A stretch of 64,000 bases of DNA from Spartobacteria bacterium (GTDB taxonomy: Bacteria; Verrucomicrobiota; Verrucomicrobiia; Chthoniobacterales; UBA10450): the NCBI GenBank assembly GCA_003167555.1, contig PMSN01000011.1, forward strand, positions 558,001 to 622,000, written 5' to 3'. This document shows positions 49,101 through 53,742 of this stretch, one piece after another. The first letter of the stretch is position 1; every line of letters starts with the position of its first letter. The notes beneath the pieces are model-generated. The model made no database searches and was not told the origin of the DNA. It worked only from the letters and a program-made list of their open reading frames with translations. The translations under genes were made by a program, and so were the position numbers.

Positions 49101-49297
49101 AACGAGCCTCGAAGAGTGCGTAAGCTGGCGCGCCCGCCCCGATGGGTCAAGCGAATCTTCCACTCGCGAATAGGCTTGCTCGCGAAAGCTTTCGGAGTTC
49201 GGAGTTGAACGTTAACCGCGCACGAGAGTCAAAGATACTTCACGCCGCGATCCTTATTCGCTAAGTCATTAAGTCGCCAGATCGCTAATTGCCCAAA
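49101..49297. other. Divergent intergenic region with short-motif array
   Basis: 197 bp between rpmB and the Gfo/Idh gene. It should hold both promoters. At 49255-49290 there is a loose array of CTAAGTCATTAAGTCGCCAG-type motifs, comparable in style to the GGAGTA and AACGCC arrays elsewhere in the window. No gene seen. Confidence 0.45.
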
Positions 49298-50338
49298 ATG
49301 AGCCGGACGAATCACCAGAAATTGCGGGTCGGAATCATCGGCGCGGGCGACATCGTGAAAAAACGCCACCTGCCGGGGCTGCAAAAGCATTCCGAGGTCG
49401 AGATCATGGCGGTCTCGAATTCCACCTACGAAAGCGCGGAGAAATTCTGCCAGGAAAATGTGCCGCACGCCACGCCGATGCAGAATTGGGCCGACCTCCT
49501 CGCGATCCCGGATATCGACATCATCTGGATCGGCACGCCGCCGTATATGCATTCGGCCATCACCATCTCCGCGCTGGAAGCGGGCAAACACGTCTTCTGC
49601 CAAGCCCGGATGTGCATGGACCTCGCGGAGGCGGAAGAAATGCGCGCGGCGTCGAAGCGATTCCCCGAGCTGGTCACGATGCTTTGCCCGCCGCCCTTCG
49701 GATTGCGCGGCGATCTGCTCGTGAAGAAATTGCTCGCCGAAAATTATCTCGGCCGCCCGCATCACCTCCGCCTGCAATGTTTCACCGGCGCTTATTTGAA
49801 CCCCGACACTCCGGCGCATTGGCGGCAGCGGATCGAGATCAGCGGCTTGAATATTCTGGCCCTCGGCATCTACGTCGAAGTCCTCCAGCGCTGGTTCGGC
49901 GAGATCACCGGCGTTTTCGCCCGCGGGAAAATCCTGCACGCCATCCGGCAAGGCTACGAAGTCATCGTGCCGGACATGGTCACGATCCTGTGCAAATTTG
50001 CCAACGGCGCCGAGGGCGTCCTCGAGTTCAGCGGCATCAACGCGCTCGCTTCCGGCGATCGTCTCGAGGTCTACGGCGAAGCCGGCACGATGACCTATGA
50101 CTTCGGCACCGACACCTTGAATGCCGGTCGCGCCGGCGATCGCGCTTTGCATGCGATGGAAATAACTCCGGAGCTCGAAGGCGGCTGGCACGTCGAGGAC
50201 GATTTCATCGCCGCCGTGAAATCGAAAGGCCGGGTTCGCCCGCACCCCGATTTCGAAGACGGCGTTAGTTACATGCGCGTCGTGCAAGCCGTCGCCGATT
50301 CCCGCGCGCGCAACGAGTGGGTCGAAATCAAGCACTAA
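49298..50338 (+). CDS. Gfo/Idh/MocA family oxidoreductase
   Basis: 346 aa from ATG 49298 (MSRTNHQKLRVGIIGAGD); a TTG 9 nt upstream is possible. The Rossmann motif VGIIGAGDI is at residues 10-18. The second half is the GFO_IDH_MocA C-terminal beta-sheet domain (GVLEFSGINALASGDRLEVY). The EKP motif of the family is replaced by GKHVFCQARMCM, so the usual Lys-Pro is lost. Members oxidise or epimerise sugars and cyclitols with NAD(P). The altered motif leaves the substrate open. Several Cys lie near the active site. It is the last ordinary gene before the cassette array. Confidence 0.85.
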   Translation: MSRTNHQKLRVGIIGAGDIVKKRHLPGLQKHSEVEIMAVSNSTYESAEKFCQENVPHATPMQNWADLLAIPDIDIIWIGTPPYMHSAITISALEAGKHVFCQARMCMDLAEAEEMRAASKRFPELVTMLCPPPFGLRGDLLVKKLLAENYLGRPHHLRLQCFTGAYLNPDTPAHWRQRIEISGLNILALGIYVEVLQRWFGEITGVFARGKILHAIRQGYEVIVPDMVTILCKFANGAEGVLEFSGINALASGDRLEVYGEAGTMTYDFGTDTLNAGRAGDRALHAMEITPELEGGWHVEDDFIAAVKSKGRVRPHPDFEDGVSYMRVVQAVADSRARNEWVEIKH

Positions 50339-50344
50339 AGTTTC

Positions 50345-50420
50345 TGTAGCGGCGGTCTCTGACCGCCGAAGTTTGTAGCGGGCGTTGCTTGCAGCCCGAC
50401 ACGACGTCCGTGTCCAGGCT
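50345..50420. repeat. Intergenic repeats: TGTAGCGGCGGTC half-element and a second hairpin
   Basis: TGTAGCGGCGGTCTCTGACC is identical to the left arm at 6677. It is followed by TGTAGCGGGCGTTGCTTGCA and ACACGACGTCCGTGTCC, a small palindrome. Confidence 0.65.
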
Positions 50421-50494
50421 TGTATGTTTCCGGCATGCTGTGGTAATAATTAGCCGTGTTTCCTCCGCGGCTTCCCATCAATGTCCCCCGAAAT

Positions 50495-50519
50495 AGGCGG
50501 CCAAATGGCGCCTTTTTTT
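50495..50519 (+). terminator. Probable terminator before the cassette array
   Basis: AGGCGGCC AAAT GGCGCCT with one bulge, followed by seven T (50513-50519). It would isolate the cassette ORFs from transcription of the Gfo/Idh gene. Confidence 0.6.
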
Positions 50520-50552
50520 ACGTCATTATGACGTCCAATTCTCGTTAGATCT
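50520..50552 (+). other. Left boundary of the cassette array: palindrome plus GTTAGAT box
   Basis: ACGTCATTATGACGT (a perfect inverted repeat with a single central base) is followed at 50544-50550 by GTTAGAT in the context TTCTCGTTAGATCTATG. The same TTCTCGTTAG precedes the next cassette ORF at 51181. It may be the remnant R box of a first attC or of an attI-like site. Confidence 0.5.
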
Positions 50553-51068
50553 ATGAAGCGTCTTTCAGTGCTTGCGATGTTGTTCGCGATGTCGGTCGGC
50601 GAGGTTCTCGCAGATGCCCGCGTATCTCTCGGACGAAAACCGGTTTGGCCCGAGCCGCCTTTCACGCCCGAAAAACACACATATGCACAACGGTTGGTTA
50701 GTGGCCGCTTCGCGCTTGTCCGTGATCTACGTTCCATGGACCCGTCTGCGCGGGCCGCATTTCACAAGATGGTTCCGCGGCGACAGATAGCTGTTGGAAA
50801 CGAACCGTTTGGTGCAACTGACATCGTCGGCGACGCGCGTCCTCGAAGACTCCGGATCGCCGGCCACGATTCCGACTTATGGTTTGTCCTTTATGAGGTT
50901 GGCGCCGGCCCAAACCATGACGCAGTCTTGATTTTTCAGCGTCACGGCGCCCGCTGGCAGCAAGTCTTGGCGGCCATAGGCTACGTTGGAAGCGATGACT
51001 ACCCGAGCTTTCTGAGGGCTCTGAAAAGAGGCAAATTTCACGAGGTGTTCACTGATCTCAACCTATAG
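50553..51068 (+). CDS. Cassette ORF 1: small secreted hypothetical protein
   Basis: 171 aa. A signal peptide (KRLSVLAMLFAMSVGEVLA) is followed by a mature domain with LGRKPVWPEPPFTPEKHTYA, DIVGDARPRRLRIAGHDSDL and WFVLYEVGAGPNHDAVLIFQ. I do not recognise it. It starts 3 nt after a GTTAGAT box and ends one base before a RYYYAAC box, so the ORF fills its cassette. Codon use is less GC-biased than the flanking housekeeping genes. As is usual for integron cassettes it has no obvious promoter of its own. Confidence 0.65.
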   Translation: MKRLSVLAMLFAMSVGEVLADARVSLGRKPVWPEPPFTPEKHTYAQRLVSGRFALVRDLRSMDPSARAAFHKMVPRRQIAVGNEPFGATDIVGDARPRRLRIAGHDSDLWFVLYEVGAGPNHDAVLIFQRHGARWQQVLAAIGYVGSDDYPSFLRALKRGKFHEVFTDLNL

Positions 51069-51192
51069 ATCTAACCATGCGATGGAGCGAACGTCGGACC
51101 GCTCCGCGTCCACATTTTGAAATGACTTCCACACCCTCACTCCGAGCGACACGCGGTCTCGTCCGCCGTCGCTCATCTAATTCTCGTTAGGC
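51069..51192 (+). other. attC-like site 1
   Basis: 124-bp imperfect palindrome starting ATCTAAC and ending GTTAGGC. The 5' part (CTAACCATGCGATGGAGCGA) pairs with the reverse of the 3' part (CTAACGAGAATTAGATGAGC) through a shared GAGCGA...GCGGAC core. The same 5' end and the central TTTTGAAATGACTTC-like segment recur at 52355. These features match integron attC sites. Confidence 0.75.
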
Positions 51193-51198
51193 GTACGT

Positions 51199-51648
51199 AT
51201 GACCTTGTTCCGGCTTTGCATCTGCACGTCTATAGTTGTCTTTTCCGGGTGTGCCGGGTCGCCGGTTGTGAGGTTCGGTACCGTTCATGGAATTGATGTC
51301 ATTCCGACCACTCAGATCCATTACCGGCTCGGCACTCGATTCGGCTATCAACTAAATTTTTCCCGCGACGTCGGAGTTATTAAAGTCCGACAAGAAATGT
51401 TTCTGCCCGGCCCGGCGCGCTGGGCCATCGATCCGTCGTCTGACAAAACCCTCACTCGGCATGACGTGATACGTCAATCGCGCGACGGGAGTCTGAGAAT
51501 CCGACAATTCGAGTTAGCGGGCTACGGAGCGGGTGGTTGGTTCCGGTCGTCCTACAAAATTTCCCCTGGCGACCCCCAAGGCGCATACAAGATACGTCTC
51601 TGGCTAAATGGAAGGCCACCCAAAGAGTTTAATTTTCGGGTGGAATGA
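51199..51648 (+). CDS. Cassette ORF 2: putative small lipoprotein
   Basis: 149 aa. A short hydrophobic N-terminus ends in VVFSGCAG, a plausible lipobox with the acylated Cys at residue 18. The mature part (IHYRLGTRFGYQLNFSRDVG, GDPQGAYKIRLWLNGRPPKE) looks beta-rich, ending like an extracellular immunoglobulin-type strand. No family is recognised. It begins 7 nt after the GTTAGGC box and is followed by a degenerate attC-like site. No promoter seen. Confidence 0.62.
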   Translation: MTLFRLCICTSIVVFSGCAGSPVVRFGTVHGIDVIPTTQIHYRLGTRFGYQLNFSRDVGVIKVRQEMFLPGPARWAIDPSSDKTLTRHDVIRQSRDGSLRIRQFELAGYGAGGWFRSSYKISPGDPQGAYKIRLWLNGRPPKEFNFRVE

Positions 51649-51654
51649 GCCTAG

Positions 51655-51763
51655 GCTCAACTTTGTAGTGCAACATTTGCTAGGTCTGAAGGAAGAATTA
51701 AGAATTATGAAACCAAAGACGCTCGCTCTCGCCAGCCGTCGCTGATCTTGTGTCTCGTTAGGA
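51655..51763 (+). other. attC-like site 2 (3' half conserved, 5' half replaced)
   Basis: Starts GCTCAAC (fits RYYYAAC) and ends GTTAGGA. The 3' 38 nt (CTCGCCAGCCGTCGCTGATC then TTGTGTCTCGTTAGG) match site 3 with only one or two changes, but the 5' half shares nothing with sites 1 and 3 and pairs poorly with the 3' half. Confidence 0.55.
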
Positions 51764-51769
51764 GCTAAC

Positions 51770-52360
51770 ATGAAGTGGCAGGACATAATCTCGACTCCGC
51801 TATTTTGGATAGTTTCTACTACCGGAACCGTAGCCCTCTCGATTGTCGCCAACCTTCTCACTCCCCGGGTTTCTGCGTTCGTCACCAGGAATCTCCACGC
51901 GAGGAAATCAGGCCTGCGAAAGAAACAAATTCAACGCCGTGATAAGGTGGTTACCCTCCAGGCAAATCTGTCCCGCCGCACTGGCGCTAAACTTGATGCC
52001 ATCTTCAAGCTTCTACTCGCGACGTCACTACTATTGCTGGGTCTCTTTCTTTTTCAGCTCGGCTCCAACGGGTTTCATATCACTGAGGCAAACAAGCCGT
52101 CGCCTCTAATTCAGATTCCCTTACTTCTCACGGTTCTGCTCGCAATCCTCGGAGCTATAGGGGTCGGCAAATTGGGATTGGATGATATGACACTTGCGCT
52201 CACTGCAGATCGTCGCGAACGAGTTGGTGATGATTTTCTCAAACAACACGGGCCAGCCTCCGCACAGGAGTTGGAGCAGCTTGAAGACGAGTGGGATTTG
52301 CGTGAGTTCGGAGTGAACTCGAAGCATGCCGACTTACCAGCAATCAACGAAGTCTCCTAA
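51770..52360 (+). CDS. Cassette ORF 3: small membrane protein
   Basis: 196 aa. An N-terminal helix (LFWIVSTTGTVALSIVANLL) is followed by a basic segment, then two helices (LLLATSLLLLGLFLFQLGSN and PLLLTVLLAILGAIGVGKLG) and an acidic tail (LEQLEDEWDLREFG). Family not recognised. It starts 7 nt after GTTAGGA, and its TAA stop is part of the TCCTAAC box of the next attC-like site, a common feature of cassette ORFs. It is AT-richer than the flanking chromosome. Confidence 0.65.
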   Translation: MKWQDIISTPLFWIVSTTGTVALSIVANLLTPRVSAFVTRNLHARKSGLRKKQIQRRDKVVTLQANLSRRTGAKLDAIFKLLLATSLLLLGLFLFQLGSNGFHITEANKPSPLIQIPLLLTVLLAILGAIGVGKLGLDDMTLALTADRRERVGDDFLKQHGPASAQELEQLEDEWDLREFGVNSKHADLPAINEVS

Positions 52361-52477
52361 CCATGCGATGCAGTGAACCGCTGGCCGCTCCGCGCTTACG
52401 CTTTTGATGACTTCGACATTCAACCTGCAGCCGTACGCGCCCTCGCCAGCGGTCGCTGATCTTGTGTCTCGTTAGGT
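52355..52477 (+). other. attC-like site 3
   Basis: 123 bp, starts TCCTAAC and ends GTTAGGT. Its 5' side CTAACCATGCGATGCAGTGA plus ACCGCTGGC pairs with the reverse of its 3' side through CAGCGACCGCTGGC. The best-preserved site of the array. Confidence 0.78.
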
Positions 52478-52484
52478 CTTACAC

Positions 52485-53054
52485 GTGCTCCACATCACTC
52501 AAGCACTCCGTTGGCGCCTGATTCTTGGAACGGTGGCCGCAGTCGTTCTTGGCAGCATATTATTTCCTGTGTGGACGGTCATTCCTCCCGATGGCGGTTC
52601 ATACACTGACCCGCCACAGTGGCGGGCGTTTCTAGCGAGCCATCCTTCGAGCTATCCTGACTACTCGGGCCGAGTGATGATTGATATCCGCGGGACCATC
52701 GAGGCGATCCTGCTCCTGGCTTTTCGTCTCTTCGTTTTGTATTTAGCGTTTGCTTTTGCTTACCAGTTGGCGCTTCAGAATACGTGCGCGGCGTGGAAGT
52801 CATACCTGCTAGCCGTGGCGTCAGCCGCCGTTCGGGCGTACTTGTCTTGGTTGACGTACGGCACGCACACAGAAGATTCCGACCCTATTTTTGGCGGTGG
52901 AGATGTTGTGGACGATTTTCAGCCCACGTCGCACCAGCGGGAGCAGCACGCGCTCTTTGTATTCGCCTTCTTGGTTATCCCTGCGATTGGCGGCACGTTT
53001 TTTGGACGCCGCGAGGCTGCGCAGACGAAAAACCTAACCAAACGATGCAGCTAA
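52485..53054 (+). CDS. Cassette ORF 4: small membrane protein
   Basis: 189 aa starting at GTG 52485, 7 nt after GTTAGGT. Four helices are predicted (WRLILGTVAAVVLGSILFPV, AILLLAFRLFVLYLAFAFAY, SYLLAVASAAVRAYLSWL, ALFVFAFLVIPAIGGTFFG) with a large loop carrying the motif HTEDSDPIFGGGDVVDDFQP. Family not recognised. The last seven codons (NLTKRCS) are encoded by the 5' end of a fourth attC-like site, so the ORF reads into the recombination site. Confidence 0.65.
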   Translation: MLHITQALRWRLILGTVAAVVLGSILFPVWTVIPPDGGSYTDPPQWRAFLASHPSSYPDYSGRVMIDIRGTIEAILLLAFRLFVLYLAFAFAYQLALQNTCAAWKSYLLAVASAAVRAYLSWLTYGTHTEDSDPIFGGGDVVDDFQPTSHQREQHALFVFAFLVIPAIGGTFFGRREAAQTKNLTKRCS

Positions 53055-53100
53055 CGGCTGTGGTTCGTTGTGGACAGCGGAATGCCGTAGTGGTTCGCCG
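53032..53100 (+). other. attC-like site 4, truncated
   Basis: Starts ACCTAACCAAACGATGCAGC, matching the 5' end of sites 1 and 3, but no GTTRRRY box follows before the convergent DUF47 gene. It marks the right end of the array. Confidence 0.55.
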
Positions 53101-53103
53101 GCC

Positions 53104-53742
53104 TCAAGAATACTTGAGCACGACCTGGAGGATGATGTTGCCGGCGTCGCGGCAACGGTCGATCACTTTTTCGAGCAGCTCGTAGAGATCGCGCAGGAAA
53201 AGGATCTGCTTCGTGTTGTAATCGCCGTGATACAAATCGCTGAGCAGCTCCAGCTCCAGTTTGTCGGCGTCGCCTTCGATCGTCTGGAGCCGTGCGTTTT
53301 TCTCGCGCGCGGTCGCGACATCGGTCCCTTTGCGCAATTCTTTTACCATCGCGAGAACCGCTTCCGCGGCTTGATCGAGTAACTCCAGATGCTTCTTGAA
53401 ACTGCGGCCGTGGAGTTCGGCAGGAAAGATCAGGATGCGTTCGCCGATTTTTTCCACGGTCTTGGGAATCTTATAGAGCGCGGACGCGAGCGCCTGGATG
53501 TCCTCGCGTTCCAGCGGCGTAATGAATGTCTTGCAGAGCTGCTCGGTCAGCTCCTGCGTGATCTCTTTATCCTTTCGCCGGCTGTGGACAAATTCATCCA
53601 GACTCGCGGGCGAATCGTGATGTTCCAACTTCGCCAGAAGGGCCACGAGATGATGGACGCTGTTGTCGGCCTGCTCCGCGCTGGCTTCCAGCAAATCGAA
53701 GAACTTCGTGTCTTGTCCAAAGAATTTGCGGATCGAGAACAT
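53104..53742 (-). CDS. DUF47 (PhoU-like) phosphate-transport accessory protein
   Basis: 212 aa, almost all alpha-helical. The repeated helical motif ExEADKLxxE appears as TIEGDADKLELELLSDLYHG, and the C-terminus DLYELLEKVIDRCRDAGNII is characteristic of the DUF47/Pit-accessory family. Such genes are usually followed by a Pit inorganic-phosphate transporter, and the pair controls phosphate uptake. Here the place downstream on the same strand is taken by the cassette array, so the transporter has been lost or moved. mgtE lies upstream on the same strand. Confidence 0.88.
   Translation of the reverse strand: MFSIRKFFGQDTKFFDLLEASAEQADNSVHHLVALLAKLEHHDSPASLDEFVHSRRKDKEITQELTEQLCKTFITPLEREDIQALASALYKIPKTVEKIGERILIFPAELHGRSFKKHLELLDQAAEAVLAMVKELRKGTDVATAREKNARLQTIEGDADKLELELLSDLYHGDYNTKQILFLRDLYELLEKVIDRCRDAGNIILQVVLKYS

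Follow-up and report, generated by a model that had tools for sequence, protein, structure and literature searches.

An integron cassette array with an attI-like head and no integrase of its own in the place of a phosphate-permease gene in a Spartobacteria genome

The window (the whole 64,000-nucleotide stretch of DNA analysed, on contig C23 of the genome) contains an integron cassette array at ~50544-53067, in which two of the four proposed attC sites are intact and no integrase is found nearby. The array is located where relatives keep the gene for a PiT phosphate permease (pit), which has been displaced. The explanation that we consider probable is that this is a short integron array, consisting of an attI-like site and four cassettes in the slot of pit, which has no integrase of its own and was served in trans by an integron integrase (IntI), with its second attC broken by an IS30-family element and its fourth present as a stub (Table 1). 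An array of at least two attC sites without a neighbouring intI is operationally defined as a CALIN (PMC9024848). A preliminary description of the window had proposed such a CALIN without local integrase, and this is supported, as attC1 and attC3 matched an independent covariance model and no intI is adjacent; a complete integron, in which intI adjoins attI and cassettes, is not present at the locus. The term CALIN undersells the array, however, since an attI-like element is located at its head.

Table 1. Features of the array and its flanks in window coordinates. G000 is this genome and C numbers are contigs; R1 and R2 are the attC covariance model and the head-element sequence model, and the R1 E-values come from a shortened calibration.
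Feature	Positions	Strand	Basis
Flank: Gfo/Idh/MocA oxidoreductase gene	49289..50338	+	homology and domain search
attI-like head, hairpin element ending TCTCG^TTAG, 63 bp	50486..50548	+	R2 match 50487-50551, 74 bits
Cassette 1	50545..51186	+	G50544^T to G51186^T, boundaries read directly from sequence
ORF1, 171 aa, likely secreted (signal peptide by eye)	50553..51068	+	no known family
attC1, intact	51069..51192	+	R1 105.7 bits, E 1e-27
ORF2, 149 aa, likely lipoprotein (by eye)	51199..51648	+	no known family
IS30-family left-end remnant, 45 bp, at attC2 R'' box	51651..51695	+	same sequence beside IS30 transposase at C3, C12 and C20 ends; complete copy in G003
attC2, 3' part left (L'-R'; R'' and L'' lost)	51696..51763	+	R1 20.5 bits; complete relative in G019:C24
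ORF3, 196 aa, membrane segments (by eye)	51770..52360	+	no known family
attC3, intact	52355..52477	+	R1 93.5 bits, E 3e-24
ORF4, 189 aa, membrane segments (by eye)	52485..53054	+	no known family
attC4 stub (CCTAAC..., no R' box)	53032..53067	+	ends at G53067^TT; read directly
pit remnant, 33 bp (peptide ...ANHYGIPLSTT)	53068..53100	-	homology to pit of relatives
Flank: DUF47/PhoU_div protein gene, pit neighbour in relatives	53104..53742	-	homology and domain search

The attC sites were searched with a covariance model (R1) built from 12 aligned attC sites on other contigs of the same genome and containing no window sequence. The expected hairpin was written down for this alignment, and 95.7% of the cells in the 12 sites were paired, with 11 of 23 pairs changed on both sides. 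None of 500 shuffles was as good, and slid controls were far worse. R1 gave three matches in the window, of which those to sites 1 and 3 scored far beyond chance, and 27 matches on 13 contigs over the whole genome. Sites 1 and 3 have the R'' box (RYYYAAC), the R' box (GTTRRRY) and a paired imperfect hairpin with unpaired extra bases that are expected of an attC; sites 2 and 4 do not. The four palindromes of 109-124 bp described previously are therefore reduced to two intact sites. The halves of site 2 do not pair because an IS30-family element end makes up the 5' half, and site 4 (~36 bp, no GTTAGG box) is a stub to which R1 gave no match. Both of the shared motifs described are present, the 5' one in sites 1 and 3 and the 3' one in sites 2 and 3. 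Energy-only folding of site 2 or of a single attC gave weak z-scores even for real attC sites and was hence uninformative. attC sites of the same type adjoin an integron integrase in the arrays on C18 and C14.

All four same-strand ORFs of the preliminary description are present, and no family was matched by the four cassette proteins in Pfam, NCBIfam, PHROGs or PADLOC. The cassettes are AT-richer in codon use, as had been noted, with a GC3 of 0.55-0.62 compared to 0.73-0.79 in six flanking genes. The stop codon of ORF3 falls within the R'' box of site 3 and ORF4 runs into site 4, also in agreement with the first reading. The cassette ORFs were not found in relatives at the DNA level among the matches listed, which comprised only attC, head and IS pieces, and the same four genes and spacers were not seen in synteny. 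Since attC2 has lost R'' and L'', cassettes 2 and 3 would have no working site between them, and since attC4 is a stub, cassette 4 would be fixed to the pit remnant. On paper, cassettes 1 and 3 would thus keep a working attC, whereas cassette 2 would have none and cassette 4 would be stuck. Rfam and tRNA scans of the window gave no matches.

The left limit of the array had been placed at 50544, which is a valid G^TT point, but the 63-bp element just upstream had been missed. Head elements of this kind were collected in a sequence model (R2) that includes the window copy, and the element recurs among congeners in unrelated contexts. In a Chthoniobacterales MAG (L126) it is located just upstream of intI, and similar elements lie between intI and the cassettes on C14, G016:C33, G003:C10 and at L130. 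attI sites are organised with L and R boxes (PMC4792948), and at these other loci elements of this kind occupy the attI position between intI and the first cassette. Many head copies end in GTCTAAT-TCTC-GTTAGAC, an inverted pair as expected for attI L and R boxes; the L box of the window head is CCAAT and is degenerate. The head hairpin covaries across 50 distinct copies that were aligned by sequence alone, although RNAalifold predicted no structure on 55 head elements. As a conserved, covarying element located between intI and the cassettes in intact integrons, it is attI-like, and the position and sequence of the window copy suggest that it may function as attI. Short hairpins in the arrays were also considered as a second attC class; this was ruled out, as these hairpins proved to be head elements with non-cassette DNA in front of them. 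At G005:C24 (L241, G005:C24:12448-16386), intI and the cassettes run in the same direction and an attI-like element lies downstream of the intI stop, and in the other integrons intI is divergent from the cassettes.

No TIGR02249 match was found in the window's span of C23, consistent with the earlier statement that no integrase lies in the 64 kb. Although the locus has no integrase, the genome encodes two intact IntI above the TIGR02249 cut-off, on C18 and C14. Both genes are divergent from their own cassettes, which end in the window's attC type, and the C14 IntI aligns over its full length with the solved IntI4 (2a3v, E 4e-85). Among the 39 genomes sampled (38 relatives plus the present one), at least 24 encode IntI and at least 33 contain R1-type attC. 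We suggest that the cassettes were joined in trans at the G^TT of the head by an IntI tyrosine recombinase, most likely that of C18 or C14, and such loading may continue at present. Against this, both known intI adjoin attI variants unlike the window head, so that recognition may fail.

The space between the Gfo/Idh and DUF47 genes is occupied, in congeners and further members of the family, by a PiT phosphate-permease gene of ~349 codons (PF01384, E 2e-99). Alignment with the pit genes of 17 relatives places the start of the homology in the window at G53067 for 10 of them and at 53063-53066 for another five; the remaining two gave no meaningful alignment. The right edge of the array thus falls on a G^TT of pit or no more than a few bases from it, which is what IntI would leave on joining the end of an attC to a GTT of the chromosome. 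G53067^TT is, however, a signal of three bases only, and the alignments of five relatives begin 1-4 bases earlier. The start of pit, on the right, and its end, on the left, are both gone, and therefore deletions also occurred. The loss of the pit part left of the insertion point counts against our explanation, to which at least one deletion must be added. The DUF47 gene, which is of the Pit-accessory type, persists without an adjacent phosphate permease, and two further PiT-family genes are present in the genome, on C26 and C28.

Across the genus, attI-like heads are found repeatedly, in most cases with no intI. R2 copies numbered 12 in this genome and at least 14 in G007 (97% complete), where no integron integrase at E 1e-60 was among the matches listed. 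At 29 sampled head loci, all R1 matches were downstream on the strand of the head and none upstream. At least one R1 attC match was present at 22 of the 29, and among the matches listed an integron integrase lay within 1.5 kb of three of these 22. For the heads at L291, L290, L295, L299, L306 and L307, no attC could be recognised within the following 1.5-2.5 kb; such heads are either empty landing sites or arrays with decayed attC. In this genome, ordinary chromosomal DNA lies in front of the heads on C20, C3, C12 (two) and C26. We favour the reading that IntI made elsewhere would load cassettes at several attI-like heads. Alternatively, a complete integron may once have been present in the window and lost its intI by deletion, so that the head is the original attI and the array a fossil without service in trans, which we regard as possible but rather doubtful. 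Loss of intI does happen, as the C4 head (L305, G000:C4:1-4000) is immediately preceded by a C-terminal intI remnant at ~1230-1840, in the same direction as the cassettes that follow. CALINs have been proposed to arise via intI loss (PMC8618304), and the deletions on both sides of the pit remnant would also agree with such a history. In contrast, no trace of intI is found in the 147 bp up to the intact Gfo/Idh gene, and many heads of the genus are without intI behind varied ordinary chromosomal DNA, which would need many clean losses. Loading in trans and loss of intI may both apply.

It is unlikely that IntI inserted the cassettes off-target at a secondary GTT in pit, with the sequence before cassette 1 being an insertion-attracting hairpin repeat rather than an attI. 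CALINs are known to originate in this way (PMC8618304), and the G^TT within pit at the right end of the array would be accounted for, but the left edge is not pit sequence and the head matches elements located between intI and the cassettes in intact integrons. That the locus is no integron at all, but ordinary small genes with repeated hairpins between them, as four same-strand ORFs without assigned family in a window without intI could suggest, has practically no chance of being correct and is refuted by the covariance test and the genome context, since the attC matches include conserved unpaired bases, on other contigs intI lies beside the same sites, no ORF is common to relatives at the DNA level among the matches listed and pit occupies the slot in relatives.

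Site 2, described as a whole at 51649-51763, carries in its 5' part a sequence that recurs at contig ends of the genome, where it is attached to the 3' end of a transposase gene of the IS30 family, and a divergent attC was ruled out on this ground. The IS30-type transposase was detected above the NF033563 cut-off at C20, C3 and C12. A complete copy of 1,087 bp in the congener G003 has a 354-aa transposase ORF with HTH_38 and rve domains, the latter just below its curated cut-off. GTGCAACA is found inside both IS ends as terminal inverted repeats which, together with the transposase, place the element in the IS30 family. GATC borders this single complete copy on both sides. A 7-bp target duplication was ruled out, as the left and right junction sets have no 7-mer in common, and no pair of left and right junctions with matching flanks was found among the contig ends of the genome. 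The left ends in the genome begin with CTAGG and are preceded by R-C. Four of six right ends directly precede an R1-detected attC (C1, C8, C25 and C11), and left-end remnants are found among attC sites in G003, G005 and G006 and near a weak attC in G004. Together, these positions suggest that the element enters the attC R'' box at NNRY^CTAACC, with a complete attC left on its right, and that it has repeatedly occupied such boxes.

In a complete G019 attC of the same subtype as attC2, CTGAAGGATGAATTAAGAATGATGAAACC occupies the position that in the window, behind the IS end, is taken by CTGAAGGAAGAATTAAGAATTATGAAACC, and the IS end and the remainder of attC2 are joined at microhomology. The simplest history would be that the IS30-family element hit attC2 at its R'' box and that a later deletion between two CTGAAGGA copies took the IS body together with the 5' half of the site (R'' and L''). 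IS30 of E. coli prefers nearly palindromic hot spots and makes 2-bp target duplications (PMC9333248); the element described here shares its transposase family, but its one complete copy is flanked by GATC. Other mobile elements that settle in attC are the IS1111-attC insertion sequences and group IIC-attC introns (PMC11187229, PMC7923331), from which the present element differs in belonging to the IS30 family (DDE transposase) and in its apparent entry at NNRY^CTAACC in the R'' box with a complete attC behind. In G000, contigs C1, C3, C4, C8, C11, C12, C14, C18, C20, C21 and C25 begin or end with one or the other end of a single IS30-family element (CCTAGGCTCAACTTTGTAGTG / GCACTTAGTTTGTGAATTCGCG), in many cases beside attC sites. 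The draft assembly is therefore broken at IS copies inside cassette arrays.

Integrons are common yet hardly described in environmental Verrucomicrobiota. CALINs are usually taken as decayed or misassembled integrons, partly because general tools cannot recognise attI. With an attI-like site that is recognisable across a genus, integrase-less attI-headed arrays become countable and service in trans becomes testable, which bears on cassette spread and expression in environmental Verrucomicrobiota. In addition, the locus documents the displacement of a phosphate-transport gene by an integron array and gives a hint of an IS30-type element that prefers attC. The window array is of a known kind, as integrons and CALINs have already been found in Verrucomicrobiota (PMC8618304, PMC9024848), and its attI-like head is a variant feature. 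Like the CALINs of those reports, it has two intact attC with cassette ORFs and no neighbouring intI, in a genome with intI elsewhere, so that off-target or trans loading would be possible. It differs from them in its head, the integrase-less headed state recurring genus-wide. Sedentary chromosomal and class 1 integrons resemble it in their attC, G^TT joints and, on C14 and in relatives, a head between intI and the cassettes, whereas the window has no intI and the cassettes are split among numerous small arrays instead of forming one large array. The newer points are the scattered integrase-less attI-headed arrays and the apparently attC-seeking IS30 element. In the openly accessible literature searched, nothing was found on dispersed integrase-less attI-headed arrays or Udaeobacter-type integrons, and no description of an IS30 element in attC or of attC as an IS30 target. 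Tentatively, and with somewhat less than even confidence, we propose that the integron of this genus is dispersed, with many scattered attI-like heads that each hold zero to few cassettes, usually lack intI and depend on one or two integrases acting in trans. In this view the heads would also be mobile, for example by attI x attI recombination or through a 5' GTTAGRC box that lets some travel like cassettes, and the IS30-family transposon would be specialised on the attC R'' box, rebuilding a complete attC behind it.

Elsewhere in the sample, the congener G002 has a far larger cassette load, with at least 91 attC matches (contigs C54, C43, C20 and C13) and three integrase matches among those listed. 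In the window, a short dispersed repeat (TTCTGTAGCGGCGGTCTCTGACCGCCG) is located at 50341-50368, with exact 28-29 bp copies in G017, in G011 and on other contigs of the genome.
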